A stretch of 64,000 bases of DNA from Terriglobus albidus (lineage in GTDB: Bacteria > Acidobacteriota > Terriglobia > Terriglobales > Acidobacteriaceae): the NCBI RefSeq assembly GCF_025685425.1, contig NZ_JAGTAS010000048.1, positions 62,001-126,000 on the forward strand, read 5' to 3'. Position 1 is the first letter of the stretch; every line of letters begins with the position of its first letter. The notes beneath the pieces were generated by a model, which saw nothing but the letters and a program-made list of their open reading frames with translations, made no database searches and was not told the DNA's origin. The position numbers and the translations under genes were made by a program. Of the stretch, positions 1 to 56,748 are shown one piece after another.

Positions 1-62
1 TTTTCCAATGAAAACGCCGCTGCACGCCTTTCCGGGATACCCAGCAACAGTGAAAATGCTCT
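1..62 (-). repeat. Family A palindromic element, copy A1 (cut by window edge)
   Basis: The right terminal inverted repeat, ending GAAAATGCTCT, lies at 47-62. The internal GCCGCTGCAC and TCCGGGATACCC blocks match the other copies. The left end is outside the window. The element's outer edge provides the stop codon (cta, read TAG on the minus strand, 61-63) of the neighbouring acetyltransferase. Confidence 0.85.
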
Positions 63-32759: not shown

Positions 32760-32873
32760 AGAGCATTTTCCCTGTTGCCGGGTATCCCGGAAGGGTCGTG
32801 CAGCGGCGTTTTCAGTGCGGAAAACGTCCATAGATGCGGAAGCTCTGGACTACACCTACAGGGAAAATGCTCT
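32760..32873 (+). repeat. Family A palindromic element, copy A2 (complete, 114 bp)
   Basis: Left terminal repeat AGAGCATTTTCCCTGT (32760-32775) and right terminal repeat ACAGGGAAAATGCTCT (32858-32873) are perfect 16-base inverted copies. Inside are a CCGGGTATCCCGG hairpin and GTTTTC-AGTGCG-GAAAAC. An open frame runs through it into the downstream beta-helix gene, but that part is repeat-derived. Confidence 0.92.
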
Positions 32874-44140: not shown

Positions 44141-44155
44141 GGTCAGCTTGAGTCT

Positions 44156-44313
44156 AGAGCATTTTCCCTGTTGCCGGGTGTCCCGGAAGAGGAGTGCAGC
44201 GGCGTTTTCATTGCGGAAAACGCCCATCGATGAGGAAGCCCCACTCTATCGATGAGGAAGCCCCACTCTATCGATGAGGAAGCCCCACTCTACACCCACA
44301 CGGAAGATGCTCT
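44156..44313 (-). repeat. Family A element, copy A3, with a 22-bp triplication
   Basis: Terminal repeats at 44156-44171 and near 44298-44313. The internal segment TCGATGAGGAAGCCCCACTC + TA (22 bp) is present three times in a row (44227-44248, 44249-44270, 44271-44292), making this copy 158 bp instead of about 114. Confidence 0.9.
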
Positions 44314-44428
44314 AAACGCATTCCCTGTTGCTGGGTATCCCGGAAGAGGAGGTGCAGCGGCGTTTTCATTGCGGAAAACGCCCCATCGATGAGGAAGTCC
44401 CACTCTACACCCACAGGGAAGATGCTCT
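44314..44428 (-). repeat. Family A element, copy A4, in tandem with A3
   Basis: Begins directly after A3 with a degraded left end (CGCATTCCCTGTTG) and ends with ACAGGGAAGATGCTCT (44413-44428). It carries one copy of the TCGATGAGGAAG segment. Together A3 and A4 fill 273 of the 314 bases between two divergent genes. Confidence 0.9.
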
Positions 44429-44454
44429 ACCCGACGCTCCGGTATGCTGCTGAG

Positions 44455-48553: not shown

Positions 48554-49981
48554 ATGCGCATGTTCTCCCGCCTCGGTCTAATACCTTCCGGCAAGGCCCT
48601 CTCCCTGCGAACGATTGGTGGGCTGACCGCGGCTCTTTTTCTTCCTTTTCTTCTCACGCGCGTCAGCCTGCATGTTGATGTTCTGAAACATGTACCGTTC
48701 GCACTGGCACTGCTCTTTGTTGGGGCGATTACTCTCTGGCAGCGATTCCATGCCGGTATTGTGGCTTCCTTATCGATGGCTTTGGGAGCATGGCGGAAGT
48801 TTCTCGAACTGGACCATGGCGAGCATCCGGTTCGCGCGGTTATTCGGGCAAGTGTAACCTTCGGCATAGGGTGTCTTTTCGCTGCCGGCTGGGAGTGGCA
48901 GAGGCGAAACCGTGATTGCCTGGCTTTTGCCTTGTCAGAACTCGGCGCGCGAAGAGAAGTGCTTACCGAAGCACAGAGAGCCTCAAAGTCCGTGGCATGG
49001 TCCTACAATCTTTCAACCAGCCGCATGACATGGGAGGAGGATGGCCTGGATGTCTTTGGAAGATCGCTCTTCGATGCGTCCACTCCTCAAACCTCATTGG
49101 AGCTCGTCTATGAGGACGATCGCGATCGCGTGTCACGTCTGTATCAGGAGGCGCTTCAAAAAAACGCACCCTTTGAGATCGAGTTCCGGTGTCTATGGCC
49201 GAATGGAGAGATGCACTGGCTTGAGGCGCGTGGGAAGCCATCGGCCACAAGGCCGCATACCTGGATTGGCATCACAAGCAACGTTGACACCAGGAAGCGA
49301 TCGGAGCAGGCGCTGATTCGATCGGAAAAGCTGGCAGCGATTGGACGCCTGTCTTCCACCATTGCGCACGAGCTCAATAATCCATTGGCTGCGCTGACCA
49401 ACCTGATCTACCTCGCCCTGGCTGATCCGAAGCTGTCGGATGAGTCGCGCGAGTATCTTGCAGTCGCGCACACACAGATCAGGCGCTTGAGCACCGTGGC
49501 GAGACATCTCCCGACCCAGCGGGCATTCCCTCAGGGAGGCCCGGCCGATCTCCACGAGATAGCGAAGGAGGCCGTCGATCTATTTGCAGCGCGGTGTGCA
49601 TCCAAGGGGTGCCGGATAAGAACCGTCGAGAAGAGCCCGGTGAGAACCAGCGCTCCTAAGGAAGACGTTATGCAGATCCTGATCAACCTTCTGAACAACT
49701 CCTGCGATGCCGTAATCGAAGGGATAGGAGAGATCGTGGTTGAGGTTTCTTCTCAGGGAGAGGTCGCCTGTATTCGCATCCTGGACAATGGACCGGGTAT
49801 TCCGGCCGAGGTGCTCAAGCACCTCTTCGAACCCTTTTTCACCACGAAAACTGATATCGGCACAGGTGTCGGTCTTTGGATGGCCAGAGAGCTTGCAGTC
49901 CGGTGTGGTGGACGCCTCGTCCTTGGCGACTATGCCGCGTCATTTGCGACCGTCTTTCACCTGGAACTTCCACTGTCCTAG
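48554..49981 (+). CDS. Membrane sensor histidine kinase with PAS domain
   Basis: Protein of 475 aa with an N-terminal membrane region (two to three helices, about 20-120). A PAS fold follows (about 150-255, SVAWSYNLSTSRMTWEEDGLDVFG...EIEFRCLWPNGEMHWLEARG). The kinase core has His272 in IAHELNNPLAALTN as phospho-site, an N-box NLLNNSCDAV, and an ATP lid with [15 protein letters not shown] and GTGVGLW. It lacks its own receiver. The stop codon TAG lies at the boundary of repeat A5. It converges on a receiver protein gene, whose own kinase belongs to the same subfamily. Confidence 0.92.
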   Translation: MRMFSRLGLIPSGKALSLRTIGGLTAALFLPFLLTRVSLHVDVLKHVPFALALLFVGAITLWQRFHAGIVASLSMALGAWRKFLELDHGEHPVRAVIRASVTFGIGCLFAAGWEWQRRNRDCLAFALSELGARREVLTEAQRASKSVAWSYNLSTSRMTWEEDGLDVFGRSLFDASTPQTSLELVYEDDRDRVSRLYQEALQKNAPFEIEFRCLWPNGEMHWLEARGKPSATRPHTWIGITSNVDTRKRSEQALIRSEKLAAIGRLSSTIAHELNNPLAALTNLIYLALADPKLSDESREYLAVAHTQIRRLSTVARHLPTQRAFPQGGPADLHEIAKEAVDLFAARCASKGCRIRTVEKSPVRTSAPKEDVMQILINLLNNSCDAVIEGIGEIVVEVSSQGEVACIRILDNGPGIPAEVLKHLFEPFFTTKTDIGTGVGLWMARELAVRCGGRLVLGDYAASFATVFHLELPLS

Positions 49982-50070
49982 AGGATTTTCCCTGTTGCTG
50001 GGTTTCCTGGAAGGGGCATGCGGCGGCCATATGCGGATGCTCTGGACTACACCCACAGGGAAAATGCTCT
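49980..50070 (+). repeat. Family A element, copy A5 (91 bp, deleted centre)
   Basis: Ends AGAGGATTTTCCCTGT (49980-49995) and ACAGGGAAAATGCTCT (50055-50070). The internal GTTTTC...GAAAAC hairpin is missing. The element lies exactly between two convergent genes, and both their TAG stop codons (49979-49981 plus strand, 50069-50071 minus strand) overlap its ends. Confidence 0.9.
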
Positions 50071-50575
50071 ATTTCTTGGGTGCCAGCTCTTTCAGCCTTT
50101 CGATGAGCGCCAACGGATGCACCGGTTTAGCCAGCAATGGATACTCGTATCCGTTATCACGAGCGTGATCGAGGAGTTCCGTGATTCCCGCTTGCCCGGA
50201 AAAAAGCACAATAGTCGTGGCGGGAAGCATCTTGGAGATAACGAGCGCCAGCTCGATGCCATTCATCTCAGGCATCTTGACATCGGTAAGGAGGCAGTCA
50301 GGTTGAAAGGAACGAGCCGTCTCTACAGCTTGCCAGCCGCCGTATACCGCTCTTGCCTCGAAGCCGGCCCCACGAAGAATTGCCGCGGTCGTATCCGCCA
50401 GAAGTTTCTCGTCATCGACTACCAGAACCCGAAATTTTGCGGGCGAAGATCCATCTTGATTCGATTCCGGTAGGCTAAAACCCGATACAGAAGGTTCTGT
50501 GCCGTCGGTCAGGCGGACGGCCGGCTCCACATACGGCGCCATGGCATATCGGTTAGCTATCACGTTGAGCACCAT
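50069..50575 (-). CDS. Single-domain response regulator (receiver only)
   Basis: CheY-like receiver without an output domain. The core FRVLVVDDEKLLADTTAAILRGAGFEARAVYGGWQAV has the acidic pair, DCLLTDVKMPEMNG holds the phospho-acceptor Asp, VLFSGQAG the conserved Ser, and LLAKPVHPLALIERL the Lys. About 45 unstructured residues precede it. The start is unclear: ATG at 50575 overlaps the kinase gene by 23 bases, while ATG at 50542 would start 10 bases after its stop. Neither has a Shine-Dalgarno. It is downstream of the tandem-PAS kinase on the same strand and likely receives its phosphate. The stop codon lies in repeat A5. Confidence 0.88.
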   Translation of the reverse strand: MVLNVIANRYAMAPYVEPAVRLTDGTEPSVSGFSLPESNQDGSSPAKFRVLVVDDEKLLADTTAAILRGAGFEARAVYGGWQAVETARSFQPDCLLTDVKMPEMNGIELALVISKMLPATTIVLFSGQAGITELLDHARDNGYEYPLLAKPVHPLALIERLKELAPKK

Positions 50576-52203: not shown

Positions 52204-52317
52204 GGAGCATTTTCCCTGTAGGTGAGTCCAGAGCATCCGCATCTATGGTGTTTTACGGCAATGAAAATGCCGCTGCACTTCTCCTTCGGGATACCCAGCA
52301 ACTGGGAAACTGCTCTG
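52204..52317 (-). repeat. Family A element, copy A6
   Basis: Opposite orientation to A2. Ends GGAGCATTTTCCCTGT and a diverged right end AACTGGGAAACTGCTCT. The internal blocks CCGCATCTATGG, GCCGCTGCAC and TTCGGGATACCCAG are kept. It lies upstream of the tandem-PAS kinase, within the gap to the rseP terminator. Confidence 0.88.
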
Positions 52318-56635: not shown

Positions 56636-56748
56636 GGAGCATTTCCCTGTAGGTGTAATGTAGAGCTTCTGCATCCATAGGCGTTTTCCGAAATGAAAAC
56701 GCCGCTGCACGCCCCTTCCGGGATACCCAGCAACAGGGAAAATGCTCT
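56636..56748 (-). repeat. Family A element, copy A7
   Basis: Ends GGAGCATTTCCCTGT and ACAGGGAAAATGCTCT (56733-56748), with GCGTTTTC...GAAAACGC hairpin and the TTCCGGGATACCCAGC block inside. It starts 8 bases upstream of the cdsA start codon, so the cdsA leader is largely this element. Confidence 0.92.

Follow-up and report, generated by a model that had tools for sequence, protein, structure and literature searches.

The nearest published analogue of the repeat analysed here, by description, is RUP of Streptococcus pneumoniae, a 107-bp sequence with 108 intergenic copies, terminal inverted repeats (TIRs) like those of IS630-Spn1 and TA as its target (PMC2229807). By the same account, no other signature of structure or function is known for RUP (PMC2229807). 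Within the IS630 family, the transposase of ISY100 acts by cut-and-paste into TA with duplication of the TA (PMC2170065). Two further repeats are described in similar terms: ERIC of enterobacteria (127 bp, with a TIR, target duplication and TA termini, mostly intergenic, and varying widely in copy number among relatives) and Correia/NEMIS of Neisseria (24-bp TIR, TA termini, more than 100 copies) (PMC2229807, PMC10969869).

The present element was studied in a 64-kb stretch of DNA, the window (C19:62001-126000 of genome G000). It resembles ISY100 in its TIRs and TA duplication, but is 114 bp long and contains no transposase gene, whereas ISY100 is autonomous (PMC2170065). RUP comes from another phylum and has a named IS630 partner, whereas none was found for the present element in G000 or in its sister genome G002; the description of RUP contains neither a conserved midpoint hairpin nor an enrichment at stop codons, both of which are found here (PMC2229807). 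As described, ERIC has a 7-bp TIR and no named IS partner, in contrast to the 16-bp TIRs tied to IS630 in our element, and Correia/NEMIS, compared by description, is longer (204 bp) and belongs to another phylum (PMC2229807, PMC10969869). The element was unreported in the open-access literature searched, a scope outside which most subscription journals fall. We conclude that it is very probably an IS630/Tc1-type MITE, moved in trans by a predicted mover, the transposase of an IS630 subgroup present in this bacterial family.

Copies in the window and the genome

Using the reference copy A2 (32760..32873, forward strand, 114 bp) as a BLAST query against the window recovered all seven places that a sequence-only reading had assigned to one element, with E values of 5e-16 to 3e-38 for the other copies. 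The TIRs of A2 are perfect over 16 bases; the left one (32760..32775, forward) consists of the target-site A followed by the IS630-type tip GAGCATTTTC, and the right one (32858..32873, reverse) was defined by sequence and by comparison with IS630 ends. Both hairpins reported from the sequence are also present in A2. The left hairpin (CCGGG-TAT-CCCGG, 32778..32790) is supported by sequence and DNA folding, and the midpoint hairpin (32805..32828), in which GGCGTTTTC pairs with GAAAACGTC across a 6-base loop spacing, was found by folding A2 as DNA and is kept in other genera.

The remaining copies, all placed by BLAST, are A1 (1..62, reverse; 89% identity to A2 over 65 bases), A3 (44156..44313, forward), A4 (44314..44428, forward), A5 (49980..50070, forward), A6 (52204..52316, reverse) and A7 (56636..56748, reverse). 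Two boundaries needed correction, since A6 ends at about 52316 and A1 is truncated solely by the window edge, beyond which the whole copy occupies C19:61952-62062. Variation by internal deletion and duplication was borne out: the central hairpin is deleted from A5 (91 bp), and the length of A3 (158 bp) is explained by a 22-bp unit present three times (44226-44291). A3 and A4 form the left and right halves of a head-to-tail dimer at a single insertion site, A4 having an altered left tip (AAC-GCATT). The window was said to contain no transposase, and genome-wide matches to three families, PF01797, PF13358 and PF01609, indeed all lie outside it.

Across the 6.10-Mb, 58-contig genome, the 16-base TIR with at most two mismatches gave 313 + 312 matches (control, 0 + 1). 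This corresponds to about 300 copies, or approximately 0.6% of the genome (300 x 116 bp / 6.1 Mb), so the concern that no further copies might exist did not hold. Of 421 BLAST candidates, scoring was applied to 40 and produced 51 matches. An alignment of 36 copies, in which the 16-bp TIRs are evident, yielded a 114-bp consensus with a mean column identity of 92%. Among 185 distinct copies, conservation is highest at the ends and in the midpoint hairpin (columns 46-70); the midpoint columns reach 93-100%, with one loop column at 85%, while conservation of spacer columns falls as low as 23-62%, part of this drop reflecting two subfamilies. The copies are short, as is typical of MITEs, with an end-to-end spacing of 112-116 bp in 138 of 163 distinct TIR pairs lying within 30-400 bp; 11 pairs exceed 190 bp, including pairs formed by neighbouring copies. 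A putative autonomous copy of 1030 bp (C23:65698) proved to be a gene flanked by two ordinary copies.

G000 contains head-to-tail arrays whose period is often 114 bp (for example C42:16001-16249, C55:219977-220225, C39:265369-265617, L026, L031, L042 and L044). Their junction reads GCTCTA-NNC-GCATTTTCC, where NNC is mostly ATC or GTC and the GA tip is missing from the inner copy; the example in the window lies at 44308-44325. At 0-1 mismatch this junction was counted 29 times in G000, never in G002, and twice each in G012 and G015. Judged by these sequences, the arrays seem to be multimers that became common, by spread or expansion, mainly in the G000 lineage. Tandems of another kind (L039, L076) have one TA common to two intact ends (GCTC-TA-GAGC), the arrangement that would result if a new copy entered a TA bordering an older one. 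At L032:1020-1200, a different sequence (GCGCTGAAGGCGCG ... CAGCCTGGGGCAACGCCCCAGG) between the end of one copy and another copy looks like a further repeat family.

TA target sites and gene context

Among 145 complete copies, a set in which some places may count twice under two names (loci of G012 and G015), the element is preceded by T in 128, followed by A in 133 and bounded by TA on both sides in 102; position -2 is C or T in 119 (Y-TA). Comparison of G000 with congeneric genomes (22 rows, one of them set aside and several others without a usable alignment) identified the empty sites that the sequence-only reading had proposed to look for. At four loci, each read letter by letter, the orthologous empty site carries TA once, so the TA target is duplicated.

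Two of these loci are in the window. The A3/A4 dimer is bounded by TA at 44155..44156 and 44428..44429, and the site is empty in G002, G012, G015 and G017 (gagtc-TA). The TA flanks claimed for A3 and A5 are thus present at A5 and, for A3, at the outer ends of the A3/A4 unit rather than around A3 taken singly. The A7 site is filled in G015 and empty in G002 (gagtgc-TA-aaggg). At the other two loci, a copy in G012 (C620:2696) faces empty sites in G000, G002, G015 and G017 (accg-TA-gt), and a copy at G002:6223127 faces empty sites in G000, G012 and G017 (aagca-TA-gtg), G015 being filled at the same TA. Sites 133927 and 153811 of G000 are filled in G002 as well. In the region compared the window shares 84-92% identity with G002, G012 and G015, so insertions went on after these genomes split. 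At G002:6223127 (the same TA in G015 C331) the genomes group differently from the other sites, which could reflect lineage sorting, gene exchange, site reuse or precise excision.

The position of insertions relative to genes, called with a simple codon-usage script, was assessed at 51 loci of G000 chosen non-randomly around the best-scoring copies and on contig C19 (a 52nd lay at the edge of a locus and was excluded). At the 31 loci with a clean TA the element lies in a stop codon (12) or between genes (19) and never inside a predicted gene; the other 20 comprise 14 between genes, three at a stop codon and three inside a gene, in keeping with the intergenic position originally reported. Background TA dinucleotides in 142 kb were distributed among stop codons (68), intergenic sequence (737), gene edges (20) and gene interiors (2676, plus 68 in the last 30 nt). 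Stop codons are therefore enriched 4.7-fold among clean insertions (12/31, against 68/825 in the non-coding background; p 3e-6). At either end of the element the duplicated TA is followed by G, so a TAA or TAG codon that receives an insertion reads TAG afterwards. The enrichment may owe something both to the Y-TA preference and to selection against insertions elsewhere. Flanking genes are codirectional in 20 cases, convergent in 9, divergent in 8 and undecided in 15. At A5 (window 49979-50071), the two ends give TAG stop codons to two convergent predicted neighbour genes.

IS630 elements as candidate movers

In the copy-rich genomes, IS630-type matches (PF13358) number two in G000, two in G002, one in G015 and none in G012, and this search found no IS630 with the element's ends in G000, the complete G002 or the draft G012. 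The G015 IS630 (L216) has ends TA-GAGCA...GTGTA, of which only GAGCA and GTGTA are common to the element; relatives of its transposase occur in 81 of 300 family genomes. Inverted repeats bounded by TA were sought at 32 IS630 loci independently of the element's sequence. A pair was found at 18 loci and none at 14, and 16 pairs were scored after leaving out the weak pairs of L260 and L263. Seventeen of the 32 ends match GAGCATTTTC at 8/10 bases or better and 15 at 7/10 or fewer, the probability that a random 10-mer reaches at least 8/10 being 4e-4; at least one such end was present in 10 of the 16 elements. Six ends match at all ten bases (L251, L257 twice, L259, L266 twice). Several IS630 ends continue with five variable bases and then an AGGTGTA-like sequence, a pattern also seen at the repeat's right end (GAGCATTTTC-CCTGT-AGGTGTA), although past the first 10 bases the match is partial. 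L257 lies in the congeneric genome G014, which has no BLAST match to the element.

A full transposon with the same ends, which the sequence-only reading had proposed to seek, thus has counterparts among transposase-encoding IS630 elements of the family (the six 10/10 ends, over the first 10 bases) but not in the window's own genome. Because G000 and G002 yielded no IS630 carrying these ends, the mover looks to have been lost from, or transient in, the window's lineage. From sequence comparison, the ends of the element are of IS630 type, and IS630 elements of this group are its best candidate mover. Elements and L216-like transposases occur together in 37 genomes against 24 expected (Fisher p 3e-4, kinship ignored), the transposase set including distant L216 relatives whose ends may differ from those of the element. 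The proposal of a non-autonomous IS630/Tc1-type element is well supported by the empty sites with a single TA together with the IS630 elements with similar ends.

Other sources were considered. The IS630 of G000 itself (L058, and likewise the partial L059) is not the mover, its ends being TTGATTCCTG. L058, L217 and L218 represent one kind of IS630 in G000 and G002; the TTGATTCCTG ends were measured in L058 and L217, and contig C58 stops inside L059. An IS5-type mover (PF01609) was rejected, with no match in G000 and 15 in G002, of which only L155 and L158 have TIR-like sequence nearby (a single TIR-like end near L155, and both ends of one ordinary-sized copy near L158). Derivation of the interior from IS630 interiors, suggested by an eye-level likeness (L255, L258), was unsupported by shuffling: in 66 tests (22 ends x three inner pieces), 24 to 27 of 500 shuffles were as good for the best C-terminal ends, and the best result of all, at the other end of L269 (2/500), is about that expected from 66 tests.

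These observations fit a model in which the transposase would bind both ends (GAGCATTTTC ... GGTGTA), cut the element out and insert it at a TA dinucleotide, duplicating the TA, so that copy number would rise over many rounds. The IS630 subgroup with GAGCATTTTC-like ends would be the mover, since lost from the window's lineage, and the midpoint hairpin may help the 114-bp element to join its two ends, for example as a DNA hinge.

The midpoint hairpin across the family

BLAST matches were found in six of 61 genomes (the window's own and 60 relatives): strong in G000, G002, G012 and G015 (273 to 431 candidates each), weak in G010 and G035, with none in the remaining congeneric genomes among the 61. 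The element is also present in Granulicella mallensis X5P3, Bryocella elongata and many Acidobacteriaceae MAGs; single matches in unrelated records (L097, L118, L144, L148) look like chance, and plasmid and phage collections gave no match. Exact matches to the end TAGAGCATTTTCCCTG were found in 19 of 300 family genomes, from 8 of 79 genera, and a covariance model of 19 elements, with up to 12 candidates scored per genome under stricter filters, matched in 90 of the 300 genomes and 21 of the 79 genera. A genome-wide BLAST search of G017 (75-84% identical) gave no match, and the 80 kb compared contain no copy, while the covariance model finds two matches in this genome (best E 1.6e-9). The interior is retained and the ends are changed in G010 (L063, L068), and the interior is largely different in L145, L219, L226, L231 and L232. 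A second, related element type was seen in a copy-rich genome (MAG SH_60_12, L101:286-401), with ends GAGCATTTCTCCTAAAGATGTAG and midpoint stem CCGTTTTC/GAAAACGG.

Elements of other genera, found by their ends, are of similar length and have a hairpin at the midpoint. This was quantified in an alignment of 19 elements found by end sequence or BLAST rather than by structure (18 source elements, minus L134, L139 (= L238), L221 (141 bp) and the spurious L229 (223 bp), plus L009, L224, L227, L228 and L238). With up to 10 bases of offset allowed in the search, the best hairpin lies within one base of the midpoint in all 19, and per element only 0 to 7 of 100 interior shuffles score as well. Covariation is 0.142, compared with 0.086 in shuffled alignments (0/500 as high), and pairing is 92% in the true register versus 50-57% in slid registers. 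A larger set of 44 elements, preceded by T in 43 and followed by A in 43, was selected from 101 covariance-model matches, most of them on both strands, leaving out duplicates, L221 and L230. Anchoring the stem on its constant TTT/AAA part succeeded for 40 of the 44 and gave 17 distinct arm pairs, in which 55 of 68 outer pairs are Watson-Crick (shuffled mean 33.7, maximum 48 in 5000) and all four outer pairs are standard in 13.

Fully complementary outer quartets include GGCG/CGCC, CAGC/GCTG, GCCG/CGGC and TGGC/GCCA; three more (CGGC/GCCG, GGCC/GGCC, AGCC/GGCT) occur solely in elements found by the covariance model (L279 and later), which are biased towards pairing by construction. The outer stem thus changes sequence yet keeps pairing, which, with relatedness ignored, speaks strongly though not conclusively for selection. 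The clearly hairpin-less forms, A5 (91 bp) and L147 (36 bp), are single and have not been amplified. The constant length and midpoint hairpin of the relatives suggest that the middle matters for moving. It is quite possible, though short of probable, that the element belongs to a long-lived lineage of miniature transposons that spans 21 or more genera of a single family and keeps a length near 114 bp, with a compensating, DNA-level midpoint hairpin, perhaps a cruciform or hinge joining the ends of a fragment below the persistence length, and with ends diverging in step with the IS630 enzymes.

The hairpin might instead be a by-product of a near-palindromic origin, such as inverted duplication of one IS end, persisting as leftover symmetry without selection. 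Such a mirror origin would automatically place a hairpin at the midpoint, and the inner stem TTTTC/GAAAA does resemble the TTTTC part of the TIR. We consider this somewhat unlikely, given that in the 185 copies symmetry is retained in TIR and hairpin but gone from the spacers (in part an effect of the two subfamilies), and that seven different complementary stem quartets occur in several genera, three of them only in model-found elements.

Much less credible is the reading of the repeat as a structured non-coding RNA, or an element for transcript processing, of which copies were spread. The RNA fold is stable (z -4.9 to -7.0, three sequences) and the midpoint stem covaries, as this would predict; yet selection on one RNA strand should leave more G-T than A-C mismatches on that strand, and the two are balanced in the TIR stem (51:44), midpoint stem (20:23) and left hairpin (31:33), which gives no sign of an RNA signature specific to one strand. 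Rfam returned nothing at E<=1 for one copy with flanks, copies lie in both orientations and in every gene arrangement, and the TA is duplicated. From these sequence patterns, constraint on the hairpin is likelier to act on DNA than on RNA; the balanced mismatches and the unamplified hairpin-less forms would fit a DNA-level need in transposition, for example a hinge.

Single-strand transposition by Y1 enzymes, as in REP/REPIN systems, is not expected to duplicate the target. A REP/BIME or REPIN-type element moved by a Y1 (RAYT) transposase, the other identity raised by the sequence-only reading, is accordingly the least plausible alternative and can practically be set aside: the element is palindromic, mostly intergenic and present in hundreds of copies, and the genome has 10 Y1_Tnp matches, but TA is duplicated at the empty sites, none of the 10 Y1 loci lies between two ends (two have one TIR-like match each), no RAYT gene flanked by the repeat or REP-associated transposase with the same ends was found among them, and the ends are GAGC/GCTC TIRs, unlike the GTAG or CGTC tag with which REPs are described (PMC3733652). 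Two of the Y1 genes (L047, L048; G000:C28) encode proteins of 151 aa with near-equal scores, beside eight weaker matches.

As an IS630/Tc1-type MITE, the element goes beyond one more example of its class in its family-wide spread, near-constant length and covarying midpoint hairpin, and a likely mover can be pointed to for a repeat that makes up about 0.6% of the genome. TA targets and restored stop codons suggest a way in which so dense a repeat may stay harmless. The diverged elements, with length and midpoint hairpin conserved, also provide a natural set with which to ask whether a structured middle is needed for the mobility of a miniature transposon.
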